Below are positions 10,754 through 31,684 of a stretch of 34,783 bases of DNA, piece by piece; within the stretch, counting starts at the first letter, position 1; every line of letters starts with the position of its first letter. A model generated the notes under the pieces. That model saw only the letters and a list, made by a program, of their open reading frames with translations. It was not told the origin of the DNA and ran no database searches. The stretch is from Vicinamibacteria bacterium (GTDB taxonomy: Bacteria; Acidobacteriota; Vicinamibacteria; Fen-336). Location: NCBI GenBank assembly GCA_035570235.1, contig DATMML010000068.1:1-34783 (forward strand). Reading direction: 5' to 3'. Both the position numbers and the translations under genes were made by a program.

Positions 10754-11869
10754 CTACAGCGTCCGGCGGTACTCTACCAAGCCCTGAACGCAGGAATCCA
10801 CGTCCTGCTCGGTGTTGAAGAAATGAGTAGCGATCCGGATTCCCTCCGGTCGCTCCGTCACCGAAATCCCGAGCTCCTTCAAGAACGATCTAGCCCGTCC
10901 CGGTTCCGGCACCAGGCAGAGGGTCTGACCCGACCGGTGGTCACCCCCGGGCGACAGTACCTCGAAGCCTTGCTTGCCCAGCCGGAATGTGAGGTACATG
11001 TTGAGGGCGAGAACGCGATCGGCGATGGCGCCGGTGCCGATGCCCTGGATGTAGTCGACGGCCGCGCCCAGGGCGAAAATCTGCGCAAACGCAGGGCACC
11101 CCATTTCCGTTCGGCGGTTCCCGGGCAGGAGTCGGATCTGGCGGTTGTCGAAAGCGAACGGGTCCTCCACGCTCAACCATCCGATGGCTCGGGGGGGACG
11201 CGCGCCCAGGATCTTGCCGCTCACATAGACGAACCCCGTCCCGTACCCGGCGCACAGCCACTTGTGGCCGGTCGTGGCCAGGGCGTCGATGCCACTCCGC
11301 CGCACGTCCACCGGGAACGCTCCCACCGACTGGCTGCCGCACACCACAAAGTGTCGGTCCCCCTTCAGGGCCCCGAAAGCGCCTAGATCCTGCCGGCAGC
11401 CGTTAGAGAACTGCACGTGGCTGATCGCGATGGTGGACGCGCGGGGAGCCTGTTCGAGCGCGAAGGATTCCAACCGGAGCACACCCTCCACCGCAGGCAT
11501 GAAATGCACCTTCGTCCCGCGGTGTATCCAGGGCAGAGTCACGGTTGGGAACTCAAGCTCGTCGGAGAGGACGGGGCCGTCCTCGCCCAAAAGGTCCACG
11601 ATCAAGTTGATCCCGGTCGAGGTGTTGGGCACGAAGGCTATCTCCTCAGCCTCCGCCCCCACGAGGCGCGCGACCTTCGCGCGCACCGTCTCCCTCATGT
11701 CGAGCCACTGGTCCCAATCCCCGTCACCGCCGCTCTCCAGCGAGCGGTAGAAGGCGTCGACCGCCTCGCGCACCTGCCGTGGTGGGGGACCGGCAGCGGC
11801 CGCGTTCAGGTACACGTGGCTCTGGAGACCTGGAAAGTCCTGCCGGACTTCGTCCCAGGGAGAGGCCAT
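10754..11869 (-). CDS. Class V aminotransferase-fold protein with Cys at the PLP Asp site
   Basis: A 371-residue PLP-dependent fold-type I protein of the NifS/CsdA/isopenicillin-N-epimerase-like group. It begins WDEVRQDFPGLQSHVYLNAA and has NTSTGIN (phosphate loop), HVQFSNG, and TTGHKWLCAGYGTGF with Lys203 as the expected Schiff-base lysine. The residue normally Asp in 'VDGAQSVG', which pairs with the pyridine nitrogen of PLP, is Cys177 here (VVCGSQSVG, codon TGC at 11341-11339). A desulfurase active-site cysteine loop is not evident. Lyase, epimerase or non-catalytic roles are possible. ATG at 11869 was chosen. GTG at 11896 would add nine residues. It is divergent from the TPR gene. Confidence 0.88.
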   Translation of the reverse strand: MASPWDEVRQDFPGLQSHVYLNAAAAGPPPRQVREAVDAFYRSLESGGDGDWDQWLDMRETVRAKVARLVGAEAEEIAFVPNTSTGINLIVDLLGEDGPVLSDELEFPTVTLPWIHRGTKVHFMPAVEGVLRLESFALEQAPRASTIAISHVQFSNGCRQDLGAFGALKGDRHFVVCGSQSVGAFPVDVRRSGIDALATTGHKWLCAGYGTGFVYVSGKILGARPPRAIGWLSVEDPFAFDNRQIRLLPGNRRTEMGCPAFAQIFALGAAVDYIQGIGTGAIADRVLALNMYLTFRLGKQGFEVLSPGGDHRSGQTLCLVPEPGRARSFLKELGISVTERPEGIRIATHFFNTEQDVDSCVQGLVEYRRTL

Positions 11870-11999
11870 AGGGGACGAGAATACCGCAAAAGACACGGGG
11901 TGACTCGGCCTCTCGACCGCGGGAGCGGCGGGGCAGCGCTCGGAGTCGCAGGGCGATGACTCCCCCGTTCAAGCGATCCGGTCCCACTGATAAAGAACT

Positions 12000-13459: not shown

Positions 13460-13548
13460 GCCGGAGTGGCGAAACTGGCAGACGCGCGGGACTCAAAATC
13501 CCGAGAGCTTCCAAGCTCGTGTGGGTTCGATTCCCACCTCCGGCACCA
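13460..13548 (+). tRNA. tRNA-Leu (anticodon CAA)
   Basis: The acceptor GCCGGAG (13460-13466) pairs with CTCCGGC, followed by A and an encoded CCA (13546-13548). The anticodon stem CGGGA/TCCCG encloses loop CTCAAAA with anticodon CAA at 13494-13496, which reads UUG. A long variable arm (GAGCTT-CC-AAGCTC) marks a class II tRNA, and the T arm is GTGGG-TTCGATT-CCCAC. All stems pair. Confidence 0.97.
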
Positions 13549-25713: not shown

Positions 25714-27036
25714 ATGAAGCGAACGCAGAACGGACGGCGTGATTTCCTGAGGTCGTCCGCCGCCACCGCGGCCGGTCTGGCCGTGCTGTCGGCCTTCCCA
25801 CGGAAGGTCTTGGGCGCCAACGAGCGGTTGCGTGTCGGACTCATCGGCTGTGGCGGGCGCGGCAACCACCTCCTCGGGGAGACGTTCAAGTCGGCGGGGG
25901 AGCTGAACGTCGAGGTCGCCGGCCTTTGTGACGTCTGGAGAGTCAACCTCGAGAAAGCAGCCGCGCGGGTGGCCGCGGAGCAGAACTCGAAACCGAGGAC
26001 CTTCGCGCGGTTCCCCGACCTCCTGGCCATGAGCGACCTGGATGCGGTGATCATAGCCACCCCCGATTTCGCGCATACGCCTATCCTCATCGAGGCCACG
26101 AAGCTGAAGAAGCACGCTTTCGTGGAGAAACCGATGGCGACGGTGCTCGAGCACGCCAACACCGCGGTCAAGCTCGTGCGGGAGAACCAGACCATCGTCC
26201 AGGTCGGGACCCAGCGGCGAAGCGATCCCCGGCATCATGCCGGGGCCAAGCTGGTCCAATCCGGAATTCTGGGGAGGGTGACGGAGGTGGAGACCGCTTG
26301 GCACGACGCGTCCCCCCGCTGGGCACGCGACTTCAACGACATCCGGCACGAGGACGTGGACTGGGAGCAGTATTTGATGTTTCTCCCCAAGGAGCCCTGG
26401 AATCCGGCACGTTTCCGGCGATGGCACCTCTACAAGGACTTCACGGTGGGCACGCCGGGCCTGCTGGGGGCGCACTTGATCGATGTCGGTCTCTGGTTCA
26501 TGGACGACCCCCTGCCGCGCTCGGCGGTGGCCCACGGCGGCGTCTACGTGTGGAAAGACGGACGCGAGCATGCGGACACGATCGAATGCGTTTTGGAGTA
26601 CCCGAAGGGCTTTCTTCTCAAGTACGCAACCCGCCTCGGTAACAACAACCCTGTGCCGGAGGCGATCTTCTTCGGAACCAAGGGGACATTCGACACGGAG
26701 AGCTGGACGGCGCGGGGGACAGGCGGGGGCAAGGAGGCGCTGGCCCAGTCCGTGACCGTTCCGAAGCCGGCGACACCTGTCGCGGCCGCACCCGCCGGGG
26801 CGGGCACGCAACGGGGGGCGGCGGAGGATGCGGGCATCGCACAACCAGACCCCCGCATCGCGGGAGAGGGCCATGTCCGTAACTGGCTGGAGTGCCTTCG
26901 CTCGCGCAAGACGCCCAACGCCCCGATCGAGGTTGGGTACGCGCACTCGGTGGCCAGCATCATGTGCTTCAAGGCCTGGGAGAGCGGCCGGCGCCAAGTC
27001 TATGACCCTGCGAGCCAGCAGATCCGGCCCGCCTGA
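25714..27036 (+). CDS. Tat-exported Gfo/Idh/MocA family oxidoreductase
   Basis: A 440-residue NAD(P)-dependent oxidoreductase or glycosidase-type Gfo/Idh/MocA protein. The twin-arginine signal RRDFLRSSAATAAGLAVL (Arg8-Arg9) sends it folded across the inner membrane. The Rossmann loop GCGGRG is at 45-50, and the family FVEKP motif has Lys139. GAHLIDVGLWF matches the conserved His region of the C-terminal domain. Residues of about 350-385 are an Ala/Pro/Gly-rich insert. Exported members often act on sugars or glycans with a tightly held cofactor. ATG at 25714 has GGAGG upstream. It is not part of an evident operon. A hairpin cluster follows it. Confidence 0.92.
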   Translation: MKRTQNGRRDFLRSSAATAAGLAVLSAFPRKVLGANERLRVGLIGCGGRGNHLLGETFKSAGELNVEVAGLCDVWRVNLEKAAARVAAEQNSKPRTFARFPDLLAMSDLDAVIIATPDFAHTPILIEATKLKKHAFVEKPMATVLEHANTAVKLVRENQTIVQVGTQRRSDPRHHAGAKLVQSGILGRVTEVETAWHDASPRWARDFNDIRHEDVDWEQYLMFLPKEPWNPARFRRWHLYKDFTVGTPGLLGAHLIDVGLWFMDDPLPRSAVAHGGVYVWKDGREHADTIECVLEYPKGFLLKYATRLGNNNPVPEAIFFGTKGTFDTESWTARGTGGGKEALAQSVTVPKPATPVAAAPAGAGTQRGAAEDAGIAQPDPRIAGEGHVRNWLECLRSRKTPNAPIEVGYAHSVASIMCFKAWESGRRQVYDPASQQIRPA

Positions 27037-27391: not shown

Positions 27392-28126
27392 CTAACGAAG
27401 ACGCGCGCCGATCCAGATCGTCCGGTGGACGGCGGTCAAGAACGTAGCCAGGGTCATGAGGGCCAGCATCCACACCACCACCGTCCCCGGGGGCAGTCGG
27501 AACCAGGTGGTGAGGGTGGGGTCGAGGAAGCAGACGAGGCACGTGAGCACGAGTCGCTCTCCCCGCTGCATCAGGCCCCCGGTGCAGAGGACCCCCAGGA
27601 CCTCGCCCCGAGCCCGGGCGTAGCTGACGATCAGCGAACCGCCCATGGCGGCCGCGGCCAGGAAGGGCCCCCAAGCGCTTCCCCGAAGGTAGATCACGAA
27701 CCCGAGGAAGGCGAACACCTCCACGAAGCGGTCGAATGTGCTGTCGACGAAGTCACCAAAGTCTGAGGCCACGCCGGTCAGGCGAGCGATGCGCCCGTCC
27801 AGGATATCCGCCACCCCCCCCAGGGCGATGGCCAAGCCCCCCAGCTCGAGGCGGCCGAGGGCGATAGCCACGCCGCTGGCCGCTCCCAGGGCCAGACCCA
27901 AGTAGTTGTAGAAGTCCGGGGTGAGGCCCAAGCGCAGAGAGAGGGTGGTGAGCGGGGTTAGGGCCCACATGAACCAGTGGAGGAGGAAGTCGCCCGCCCC
28001 CAGGAAGAGCTGCCCTCCCTTGCCCTGCTGGTCAGCGTCGGTCCGGGGCCCGCGCAGGGCATAGACGCCCATCGAGACAACTCCCAGGGCGAGGGTCGCG
28101 AGGAAGGCGAGAAAGGCGGTCGACAC
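27392..28126 (-). CDS. CDP-alcohol phosphatidyltransferase
   Basis: A 244-residue integral membrane enzyme that replaces CMP on CDP-diacylglycerol with an alcohol head group. The complete signature DxxDGxxARx8GxxxDxxxD is present: Asp107, Asp110-Gly111, Ala114-Arg115, Gly124, Asp128 and Asp132. All four metal/catalytic Asp are intact. About six helices follow the usual PgsA/PIS topology, and there is an N-terminal extra helix (residues 3-24). The acceptor alcohol (glycerol-P, inositol-P or another) cannot be assigned from sequence. It is the last gene of the aminotransferase/oxidoreductase operon, 38 nt behind the fusion gene. The start GTG at 28126 has a weak ribosome site. Confidence 0.9.
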   Translation of the reverse strand: MSTAFLAFLATLALGVVSMGVYALRGPRTDADQQGKGGQLFLGAGDFLLHWFMWALTPLTTLSLRLGLTPDFYNYLGLALGAASGVAIALGRLELGGLAIALGGVADILDGRIARLTGVASDFGDFVDSTFDRFVEVFAFLGFVIYLRGSAWGPFLAAAAMGGSLIVSYARARGEVLGVLCTGGLMQRGERLVLTCLVCFLDPTLTTWFRLPPGTVVVWMLALMTLATFLTAVHRTIWIGARLR

Positions 28127-28164
28127 CGGGCTCGGTTTAAGCGGCCTTCACGAGGAAGGGGTCC

Positions 28165-30267
28165 TCAGCGCGACCGTCGCGAGAAGGGCCGCCACCAGTC
28201 GGTCCCCCCGGCGAAAGCCAGACCAAGAATGCCGATAGGCACGACCTGCAGGAGATGGTAGACGACGGCAAAAGCCAGGGCGTTCTCCTTTGGCACGCCA
28301 AACTCCACCAAGGCCAAGGTCGCGCTGATCTCGAGGGTGCCAATGTTCCCGGGCGGGGCGAGCGGAAAGGCCAGGGCCAGGTTCACCGCCACCAGTACCA
28401 GGAAGATCGCGGAGAGGGGCAGATCCAGCCCCACCGCCTTCATGGAGAGGGCGGTCACGTTCACCTCGAGGGTCCAGGCCACCAAGGAGACACCGAAGGA
28501 GGCGGCCAGGGCCTTCGGCTCTCGGCTGGCCAGGAGCCCGTGTCGCACCTTGGCCATGAACGCAGTGACCCGGGCCACGGCGTGACGGCGCGGGGAGCCG
28601 GCGGTCTCCGGGGCGCCTTCGCCCCGCGGCTGCAGGGCGAGGACCAGGATCGTGCCCAGGATGAAGAGGGCGAGGGCGAAGGCCCCGCCGGGCCGGATCC
28701 ACAGCGGGACTCCGACGAAGAAGGGGAGCAGAGCCAGGCCGAGGAGCAACCCGGCGGCGTTAACCAGCTGGTCGAGGACGATGGACCCAATGATGGACGT
28801 CCGCGGCAAGCCGGTGTCGAGCCCGAGCCAATGGGCGCGGACCAGTTCGCCCGCTCGGGCCGGCATCACCGTGGAGACGGCGAAACCCACCACCATGGCC
28901 TTGAAGGCGTGGTAGATGTTGGCAACCTTGGACATGGGACGCACGAGGGCCAACCAGCGGGCAGAGGCGGCGAGGACGAAAACGAGGTTGACGGTGGCCG
29001 CCAGGATGATCCAGCCCACCTGAGCCGAGGCCACGGCTCGGGCCACTTGGCGCCAGTCCACGTCGTAGAAGGTCCAGGCGGCGGCGGCCAGGAGGACGCT
29101 CAGGCCGACCCCCCGCAGCACCCAGCGCCGGCGTCGCCCCTCCGCGGGGGCACTGCTGGAACCCGCGGGGAGCGGCGTTGGTAACATCGAGTCGGGTGCA
29201 TCCATGGTGGCTAGCGCGTAGGCCAGGCTCTCGGCCTCCGGCTCCTCTACCTCGGTAGGAGTGAGGGACAACGCGCGGCCCTGTTCCGAGGACTCGTAGG
29301 CACGCGAGATCAGGCGCGTTACGTATACCGCTTCGTCTAGAGCCTCGGTACCCGTGTCGCTCCGGCGCACGCGGTCGGTGAAGTCGACGAGCAGCGGCGC
29401 GTACCACTCCGAATGTGAGGAGTTCTGGCTCATGCCCCCCGCGAAGGCGATCTCCTCGCGGGTCTCGGCGTGAATGCTCACCCGCTCATCGTCGCCCGTG
29501 ATTTCGCCCCCCTCGCCCACGAAGCGGTAGTGGATTTCCCGGCGCCGCGCGGCCCAGGTCAGGCTCACCTGGGCCAGGCCCTCTCCGAAATCCAGGGTCA
29601 CAAAGGCGGTGTCCTCCACCTCGTAGCCGTGGTGGAGAAGCGTCCGCACCGTAGCCTGGACGGTATCGGGTTCCCCCAGCACGGCGCGCAGCTGGTAGAA
29701 GATGTGGGCCCCGTGGTCCACGAGTATTCCGCCCCCGGCTAGGCTGCGGTCGGTGCGCCACTGAGGCTCCCAGTTCGGGTTCCCCGGGTTGGCGCCCATA
29801 CGGTGGACCTCGTACTCGGCCAGGTAGACGCGACCAATGCGGGGCAGCAGGGCCTTCACCGCCTGCCACTGTGGGGAGTAATGGTATTGATGGCAGGGCT
29901 GGAAGACGACACCCGCTTCGCGCACCGCCCGCGCTATCCGGTCCGCGTCCTCGGGGGAGGAGGCCAGGGGCTTCTCGCAGACCAGATGGAGGCCACGGCG
30001 GCTCGATTCCTCCACCAAGAGCCGGTGGGTGAAGGGGGGGGTGCAGATGTCGCAGAAGTCGAGGGACTCCCGCTGGAGCAGGTCTTCCGCCCTCTCGTAG
30101 GTGCGCGCACGGGGGAAGAAGGCGCGGGCGTCCTCCCGGTTGCACGCGGAGAGGTCGGCCACGGCCACGATTTCGACCTCGTCGCCGAGGGCGCCGCTCG
30201 CCCATTGAGGCGCATGTCCGCGGAGCGCGATGTTCCCGGCCCCGAGTAGGGCTCCGCGCAGTTTCAA
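28165..30267 (-). CDS. Gfo/Idh/MocA oxidoreductase fused to LPG-synthase-type (flippase-like) membrane domain
   Basis: A 700-residue fusion. Residues 1-340 are a cytosolic Gfo/Idh/MocA dehydrogenase: GALLGAGNIA nucleotide loop, CEKP (98-100) with the family Lys, and GGGILVDHGAHIF with His185/His188. A Glu/Pro/Ser linker (341-378) leads to residues 381-690, an UPF0104/lysylphosphatidylglycerol-synthase transmembrane domain of about eight helices. That domain has the conserved MPARAGELVRAHWLG and the late FPLAPPGNIGTLE. The frame is open across the join with no stop or start signal that would split it. TTG at 30267 overlaps the upstream TGA, and a GGGGGG(T)GG site precedes it. GTG at 30273 is an alternative. 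The role is discussed in the findings. Confidence 0.9.
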   Translation of the reverse strand: MKLRGALLGAGNIALRGHAPQWASGALGDEVEIVAVADLSACNREDARAFFPRARTYERAEDLLQRESLDFCDICTPPFTHRLLVEESSRRGLHLVCEKPLASSPEDADRIARAVREAGVVFQPCHQYHYSPQWQAVKALLPRIGRVYLAEYEVHRMGANPGNPNWEPQWRTDRSLAGGGILVDHGAHIFYQLRAVLGEPDTVQATVRTLLHHGYEVEDTAFVTLDFGEGLAQVSLTWAARRREIHYRFVGEGGEITGDDERVSIHAETREEIAFAGGMSQNSSHSEWYAPLLVDFTDRVRRSDTGTEALDEAVYVTRLISRAYESSEQGRALSLTPTEVEEPEAESLAYALATMDAPDSMLPTPLPAGSSSAPAEGRRRRWVLRGVGLSVLLAAAAWTFYDVDWRQVARAVASAQVGWIILAATVNLVFVLAASARWLALVRPMSKVANIYHAFKAMVVGFAVSTVMPARAGELVRAHWLGLDTGLPRTSIIGSIVLDQLVNAAGLLLGLALLPFFVGVPLWIRPGGAFALALFILGTILVLALQPRGEGAPETAGSPRRHAVARVTAFMAKVRHGLLASREPKALAASFGVSLVAWTLEVNVTALSMKAVGLDLPLSAIFLVLVAVNLALAFPLAPPGNIGTLEISATLALVEFGVPKENALAFAVVYHLLQVVPIGILGLAFAGGTDWWRPFSRRSR

Positions 30268-31631
30268 CGCCACCCCCCGTCGCGGGAGGCCCAGGCGAAC
30301 ACCTCTTCGATGATTCCGAGGGCGGTCTCCGCCGAGGCCCGGTCCATGGAGAGCGCGGGGTTCACCCGGAAATGCGGGTTGTAGACCATGCTGATGAGCC
30401 CCCGCCGCAGGCATTCTTGGAAGAGCCGTGCGCAGAACTTCTTGTCCAGGGGTTCCTTCGTTTGGCGGTCCCGGACCAGCTCCAGTCCGATGAGCAAGCC
30501 CTTGCCCTGTACGTGGCCGATGAACTCGTGTCGCTGCTGCATCTCCCGGAACTTGCCGAGCATCCAATCGCCAAGGCGGGCGGCATTCTCTACCAGCCCC
30601 TCTTCCTCGATCACGGTCACGGAGGCGAGAGCGGCCGCCCCCGCCATGGGATTGGCCCCGTAGCTGGAGCTGGAGCCGGAAGGGTTGCCCCAGGGCGCGG
30701 CCTTGGTGATCTCGTCCGTGGAGGCGAGGCCGGAGACGGGGAACCCCGCCCCCAGTCCCTTGCCCATGGTGATCACGTCGGGGGTGGTGTCGGTGTGCTC
30801 ACATCCGAACCAGCGGCCCGTGCGCCCGAAGCCAGTGATCATCTCATCGCTGATCAGAAGGGCGTGGTTCTCGCGGGCGATCTCCTGGATGATGGGCATG
30901 AACTCCGGAGGCGGGACGACGTTGCCGGCGGTGCCTTGAATGGGCTCGATCAGAACGGCGGCGAGGGCGCCGGTGGTGGAGTTCTTCACCACCTTGCGCG
31001 CGAACTGCGCGCATTCGATCCCACACGACGGGTATTTGAGGCCGAGCGGGCAGCGGTAGCAGTCGGCATAAGGCGTGAGGTAGGTGCCCGGGAGCGAGGG
31101 CCCGAGGCCGTTCTTGGTCCCGTCACCGATGAGGGACATGGTTCCCGCGGTCTTGCCGTGGAAGCCGCCCCAGAAGGACAGGAACTCATACTTCTTGGTG
31201 TGCGACTTGGCCAGCCGCAGCGCGGCCTCGACGGCTTCCGTTCCCCCCGAATACAGCTGGATCCGGGTGAGGCCCTTAGGGGTATGAGACGCGATCTTGG
31301 CCAAGGCCTTGGCCCGGCGGGCTGTCGTGAAGGACCCGACCGTCACCTCGTCTATCTGCTCCTTGAGGATCTGGCGGTAGCGCGGATGGGCGTGGCCGAG
31401 GGCGTTCACGCAGATGCCCGCGGCCAGGTCCAGGTAGCGGTTTCCGTCCACGTCTTCGACGAGGGAGCCTTCGGCACGCGCTACGGCAATCCCGGAGAGC
31501 GTGGCGATGGACTGGACGCCGGGAGCCAAGTTTTTCGACTCCGCGGCGACAAGGTCGCGGCTCTTGGGACCGGGAATCTCGGTAACGATGCGAGGCTCTT
31601 GAGAGATGGTGGCTTCGGCAGCTTTCGGCAA
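30264..31631 (-). CDS. Class III aminotransferase, GABA-aminotransferase-like
   Basis: A 455-residue PLP enzyme of the ornithine/GABA aminotransferase class. Visible features are DLAAGICVNALGHAHP, LYSGGTEAVEAALRLAK (phosphate loop), ISDEMITGFGRTGRWF (Asp pairing with the pyridine N), and TMGKGLGAGFPVSG with Schiff-base Lys291. A four-cysteine cluster (CYRCP...SCGIEC, Cys191, 194, 203, 207) is present, as in archaeal-type GABA-T/amino-acid-racemase relatives. TTG at 31631 was chosen because GGAGG and AGGG lie just upstream. GTG at 31655 would add eight residues but leaves almost no leader after the promoter. It is first in the lipid-type operon and overlaps the fusion gene. Confidence 0.92.
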   Translation of the reverse strand: MPKAAEATISQEPRIVTEIPGPKSRDLVAAESKNLAPGVQSIATLSGIAVARAEGSLVEDVDGNRYLDLAAGICVNALGHAHPRYRQILKEQIDEVTVGSFTTARRAKALAKIASHTPKGLTRIQLYSGGTEAVEAALRLAKSHTKKYEFLSFWGGFHGKTAGTMSLIGDGTKNGLGPSLPGTYLTPYADCYRCPLGLKYPSCGIECAQFARKVVKNSTTGALAAVLIEPIQGTAGNVVPPPEFMPIIQEIARENHALLISDEMITGFGRTGRWFGCEHTDTTPDVITMGKGLGAGFPVSGLASTDEITKAAPWGNPSGSSSSYGANPMAGAAALASVTVIEEEGLVENAARLGDWMLGKFREMQQRHEFIGHVQGKGLLIGLELVRDRQTKEPLDKKFCARLFQECLRRGLISMVYNPHFRVNPALSMDRASAETALGIIEEVFAWASRDGGWR

Positions 31632-31675
31632 TCTATCCCTAACCTCCGGCCCCACTGGGCCCGGACAAACTATGA

Positions 31676-31684
31676 ATTATACCA
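31676..31684 (-). promoter_or_regulatory. Extended -10 promoter of the aminotransferase/lipid operon
   Basis: Minus-strand TGGTATAAT combines TGn with a perfect TATAAT. Transcription would start near 31669, 38 nt before the TTG at 31631. A -35 is not evident. This is the only perfect -10 noticed in the window. Confidence 0.62.

Follow-up and report, generated by a model that had tools for sequence, protein, structure and literature searches.

The window analysed here, a stretch of 34,783 nucleotides, constitutes the entire contig C68 of a 5.7 Mb genome that is 99.6% complete and very probably belongs to the Acidobacteriota. Its minus strand carries a three-gene operon (31684-27392) that encodes, in this order, a class III aminotransferase (AT3), a Gfo/Idh/MocA oxidoreductase (GFO) fused to an LPG-synthase TM/flippase-like domain (LPG_TM), and a CDP-alcohol phosphatidyltransferase (PT) resembling phosphatidylinositol-phosphate (PIP) synthases (PIPS). 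These same-strand genes lie where the original prediction had placed them, and Pfam confirmed the families. The window also holds a tRNA-Leu (CAA) at 13460-13548 on the plus strand.

The extended -10 promoter element that had been predicted for the operon was recovered as TGGTATAAT (31676..31684, minus strand), the sole match in the window. The pattern TGNTATAAT likewise occurs once in the window, as TGGTATAAT itself (31684-31676), with an expectation of 0.01, and TATAAT is present shortly upstream of the operon in two related loci (L009 and L039). The element stands as a unique motif, but a search found no consensus -35/-10 promoter. Direct reading of the minus strand revealed GGAGG, a likely ribosome-binding site, at 31643..31647, 11 nt before an in-frame TTG at 31631. 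AT3 probably starts at this TTG rather than at the GTG at 31655 chosen by the ORF finder. The stop codon of AT3 (TGA, 30266-30264) overlaps the TTG start of the fusion (30267-30265) in a shared TTGA, and 38 nt separate the fusion stop (28165) from the PT start (28126), so that both the overlap and the gap are as predicted. An alternative in-frame GTG is available to the fusion at 30273.

Families and active-site residues of the three proteins

AT3 (30264..31631, minus strand, with an ORF reaching the GTG at 31655) matched PF00202 at 313.7 bits and is 47-81% identical to 11 linked homologues. The residues that mark a class III aminotransferase, the PLP lysine K291 and D262 of the SDEMITGFGRTG motif, are invariant in all 12 sequences. 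Among solved structures, those of GABA transaminases and amino-acid racemases, including an alanine/serine racemase, lie nearest, and this comparison of the AT3 profile names no substrate. Racemase and PbfA-lyase models score well on AT3, yet under their cut-offs. Other class III aminotransferases in three of the genomes that bear AT3 are at most 39% identical to it, and a 39%-identical enzyme in genome G277, which served as negative control, has no adjoining GFO. A class V aminotransferase is encoded far from the operon (10754-11896, minus strand).

The fusion (28165..30267, minus strand) combines two Pfam-defined parts. Its oxidoreductase part matches PF01408, PF22725 and PF02894 over residues 9-337 (domain about 1-340), and its membrane part matches PF03706 over residues 391-686 at 163.7 bits (domain about 390-690). 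In 12 GFO homologues the nucleotide motif GxGxxA (G10, G12, A15) and the active site, composed of EKP (E99-K100-P101) and DHGAH of the D-x3-H type (D185, H189), are invariant. The nearest solved structures are mixed sugar oxidoreductases, and UDP-GlcNAc 3-dehydrogenase is one of the sugar dehydrogenases among the relatives of GFO; here too the profile comparison names no substrate. A structure predicted for the fusion reached a pLDDT of 47 and was left out of the analysis. The reading of the membrane part as MprF (lysyl-phosphatidylglycerol synthase) proper was rejected: the Pfam scan found the PF03706 transmembrane region alone and no aminoacyl-transfer domain. LPG_TM corresponds to the membrane half of MprF, whose soluble aminoacyl-transfer half is absent here, and by analogy it may flip lipids. 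Convergent with the operon, the plus strand of the window (25714-27036) encodes another Gfo/Idh/MocA oxidoreductase, which matches a twin-arginine signal weakly and is not kept at that place in relatives.

PT (27392..28126, minus strand) matched PF01066 at 37.2 bits (cut-off 22). Its top NCBIfam match was archaetidylinositol phosphate synthase (126.2 bits, below the equivalog cut-off of 180), followed by the PIPS families (89.1 bits with PIPS, below the equivalog cut-off of 170), with PgsA at 18.4 bits. Since these scores fall under the equivalog cut-offs, we name the protein PIPS-like and do not file it as an equivalog. The best sequence match in the PDB was mycobacterial PIPS (E 4e-15), and the predicted model of PT (mean pLDDT 81) found its best fold match in PIPS of R. 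salmoninarum (5d92; Z 22.1, 1.9 A over 203 residues), with Z scores of 18.5 for the inositol-using DIPPS, 12.0 for PSS and 11.7 for PgsA. The signature D1xxD2G1xxAR...G2xxxD3xxxD4 is present as DILDGRIARLTGVASDFGDFVDSTFD, and its four aspartates (D107, D110, D128, D132) are invariant. In MtPIPS, residues S132, K135, R155 and R195 have been tied to inositol phosphate by mutation or position (PMC4634129). Their PT equivalents are S168, R171, R191 and R235, of which the first and the last two are identical and invariant and the second is a conservative replacement. Compared with the mycobacterial and Renibacterium enzymes (6h53, 5d92), PT is alike in fold, in the signature aspartates and in three of the four inositol-phosphate residues. 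It differs in having R for K135, G at the equivalent of P153, and N for T34, the last of which departs from the cytidine motif P(D/N)xx(T/S) (TPDFYN in PT and close relatives), as well as in a longer N-terminus with an extra helix and in the linkage of its gene to amination genes. By its sequence, its predicted fold and its putative inositol-phosphate-binding residues, PT thus comes closest to phosphatidylinositol-phosphate synthase.

The possibility that PT is an ordinary PgsA with no other copy in the genome, which had been named as fatal to the original prediction, does not hold. PgsA has its own gene on contig C104 (TIGR00560, 160.6 bits, cut-off 109.1), and the family scores of PT disagree with such an assignment. 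PssA also has its own gene in the source genome (139.6 bits, cut-off 107). The same genome encodes two further PIPS-like phosphatidyltransferases, so plain phosphatidylinositol (PI) may be made elsewhere. One of the two, a second PT copy at 57% identity (L022:8233-8964; C15:86505), has as neighbours an unknown protein of 359 aa and a gene of the diacylglycerol-kinase type, with neither aminotransferase nor GFO alongside.

Conserved linkage and two cluster types

Genomes were searched for the three-gene order, as the original prediction had proposed, and the genes were found together in relatives: the set is kept in five genomes from the taxonomic order of the window (with one of the loci cut by a contig end) and in two Eisenbacteria. 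The genes that flank the operon in the window are not conserved. Because the set recurs in other genomes while its flanks do not, the linkage is more than chance, and we discarded the reading of the operon as a chance set of neighbours. AT3 and GFO are also scarce. At E<=1e-100, AT3 was detected in 9 of 396 genomes of the phylum; GFO, at E<=1e-30, was detected in 7 of 297, all 7 being among the 9 genomes with AT3 and having the two genes linked. The pair shares a cluster in each of the 15 loci examined, often as adjacent genes, and across 12 loci the divergence of AT3 is correlated with that of GFO (r 0.93, Mantel p 0.0002), a correlation to which shared organism ancestry contributes part.

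Two types of cluster were distinguished. Type A is defined as AT3-GFO-LPG_TM-PT. GFO and LPG_TM are fused in four genomes (the window, L008, L009 and L039) and are separate genes in L007, L025, L040 and L047. In the type A locus L040, LPG_TM adjoins the operon on the opposite strand, and in L058 the contig ends after GFO. In L007, two successive stop codons (1437-1442) part GFO from LPG_TM in an operon that is otherwise type A, a sign of genes that are not fused or of a fusion broken recently. Type B, found in more distant relatives, is composed of HAD, nucleotidyltransferase, ATP-grasp, AT3, PT (about 300 aa), GFO and LPG_TM in varying order. Here AT3 and GFO are accompanied by the membrane domain and by a different phosphatidyltransferase, each encoded by a gene of its own. 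All seven genes are consecutive on one strand in L047 of the Eisenbacteria sample; the module is divided over two contigs in G011, and LPG_TM was not detected at L046. Among the type B phosphatidyltransferases compared, only that of L047 keeps the fourth signature aspartate, the proposed catalytic base. This position is G or S in L025:6962-7888, L029:4477-5304, L028:4512-5366 and L046:12007-12987.

The type B ATP-grasp was found in 6 of the 396 genomes, exactly the six with type B clusters, and has RimK-like relatives. Its identification as an inositol-phosphate kinase was rejected, the match being weak and partial (E 0.002-0.1) and ligase-type matches better. Among solved structures, the best full-length match to the profile of the type B nucleotidyltransferase was CTP:inositol-1-phosphate cytidylyltransferase (52.3 bits, 1-230 of 237), with sugar nucleotidyltransferases scoring similarly. 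In one relative only (G278, L027/L041) does inositol-1-phosphate synthase belong to the cluster: a single strand carries LPG_TM, nucleotidyltransferase, ATP-grasp, AT3, GFO and PT, with the synthase just after. Adjoining this cluster, a second and divergent LPG_TM-HAD-ATP-grasp-phosphotransferase set (L041:4379-7703) has no aminotransferase of its own. Inositol-phosphate synthase is present in all 9 positive genomes of the phylum sample and in 5 of 6 others. Note however that 233 of 396 and 43 of 47 genomes of the two phyla encode it (59-91%), so its presence at the genome level is weak evidence.

A candidate pathway to an aminated inositol lipid

The balance of these observations tips slightly towards an operon that makes an aminated inositol (inosamine) phospholipid. 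PT would join inositol 1-phosphate, provided by the inositol-phosphate synthase of the genome, to CDP-diacylglycerol, giving phosphatidylinositol phosphate. GFO would oxidise one hydroxyl of the inositol ring to a ketone with NAD(P), AT3 would turn this ketone into an amine with an amino-acid donor, yielding the inosamine head group, and LPG_TM would carry or flip the finished lipid across the membrane. Amination may precede attachment, with free inositol phosphate as its substrate, or follow it, on the lipid itself; that GFO is fused to a membrane domain in four genomes speaks mildly for amination at the membrane. The original prediction had envisaged that a polyol is oxidised, aminated, attached to a lipid and exposed. 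Conserved linkage now backs this scheme, while its reactions and product keep their conditional standing. It had offered an aminocyclitol or an amino-alcohol phospholipid as examples of the product, and PT and the cluster genes now point to inositol phosphate as the precursor of what would be the former.

Other readings of the same genes must be weighed. PT so closely resembles PIPS that it might make ordinary phosphatidylinositol (phosphate), with AT3 and GFO producing a different amine, for example an amino sugar or an amino acid derivative, that decorates this lipid or serves another step. The sugar dehydrogenases among the relatives of GFO would suit such a role, and the type B ATP-grasp, given its RimK-like relatives, could attach an amine-bearing group. 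However, the operon has no glycosyltransferase or ligase and its three genes alone recur in relatives. That AT3-GFO is linked to inositol-type phosphatidyltransferases in both architectures also speaks for a shared substrate. We regard this explanation as unlikely. It is slightly less likely again that the head group is a phosphorylated amino-alcohol other than inositol, which GFO and AT3 would make and which would be used by a PT of shifted specificity that kept its phosphate-binding arginines. Class III aminotransferases frequently act on small aldehydes, and PT scores under the inositol equivalog cut-offs and departs from PIPS at K135 and in the cytidine motif, but inositol is indicated by the family and the fold that PT matches best and by its inositol-phosphate residues, as well as by the inositol-phosphate synthase and cytidylyltransferase-like genes of related clusters.

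We give very little credence to a third account, by which AT3 is a racemase or lyase, or AT3 and GFO break down an amino sugar or inosamine, with the membrane genes simply co-transcribed. The racemase among the nearest solved relatives of AT3 and the good, sub-threshold scores of racemase and PbfA-lyase models agree with it. The conserved gene order, which takes in PT and a domain of lipid-flippase type, argues against it, as do the fusion of this very domain to GFO and the scarcity of AT3 and GFO outside such clusters.

Relatively few bacteria make inositol phospholipids, and those known are anionic. With a ring amine, if true, the head group would become zwitterionic or gain in basicity, a new head-group chemistry for phyla with poorly mapped lipids. 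The literature searched, which left most subscription journals outside, yielded no paper on an inosamine or aminocyclitol phospholipid. We see a nearly even chance that phosphatidyl-inosamine is an undescribed class of membrane phospholipid, whose makers among Acidobacteriota and Eisenbacteria supplement each of the two known inositol-lipid layouts with a dehydrogenase-aminotransferase module. Proof of the ring amine would establish the new class; meanwhile, the clusters extend the known Bacteroidetes types by a modification module and offer a concrete predicted lipid mass and a small gene set for testing.

Comparison with known amination pairs and inositol-lipid clusters

Pairs of a Gfo/Idh/MocA dehydrogenase and an aminotransferase are familiar from GnnA/GnnB and from the streptomycin and rhizopine pathways, where a ring hydroxyl is oxidised and the resulting ketone is aminated. 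Those pairs use DegT-type aminotransferases and soluble substrates, whereas the aminotransferase of the operon is of class III and is tied to a lipid phosphotransferase.

Heaver et al. described two inositol-lipid layouts in Bacteroidetes, each with an LPG synthase homologue nearby (PMC9246714). The first, that of Bacteroides thetaiotaomicron, relies on a PIPS of the CDP-alcohol phosphotransferase family that uses CDP-DAG and inositol phosphate (PMC9246714). The operon shares with it a PIPS-like phosphotransferase and an LPG-type membrane protein, but has no IPC synthase and has inositol-phosphate synthase outside the cluster, on contig C30. No PIP phosphatase was found within the operon either; a PgpA homologue is encoded elsewhere in the source genome, and in B. 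thetaiotaomicron this step is served by the PgpA family (PMC9246714). AT3 sets the operon apart as well, the word "aminotransferase" being absent from the paper on B. thetaiotaomicron (PMC9246714). The second layout, that of Prevotella and B. vulgatus, comprises an NTP transferase, a CDP-alcohol phosphotransferase and a HAD hydrolase, whose roles were unconfirmed there, besides the LPG synthase homologue (PMC9246714). By its parts list type B is alike, with AT3, GFO and ATP-grasp added, while the layout of the window differs. Types A and B match the two Bacteroidetes layouts, with the AT3-GFO pair as an addition to each. Nothing speaks more strongly for an action of this pair on the inositol head group than its association with two chemically different inositol-lipid routes.
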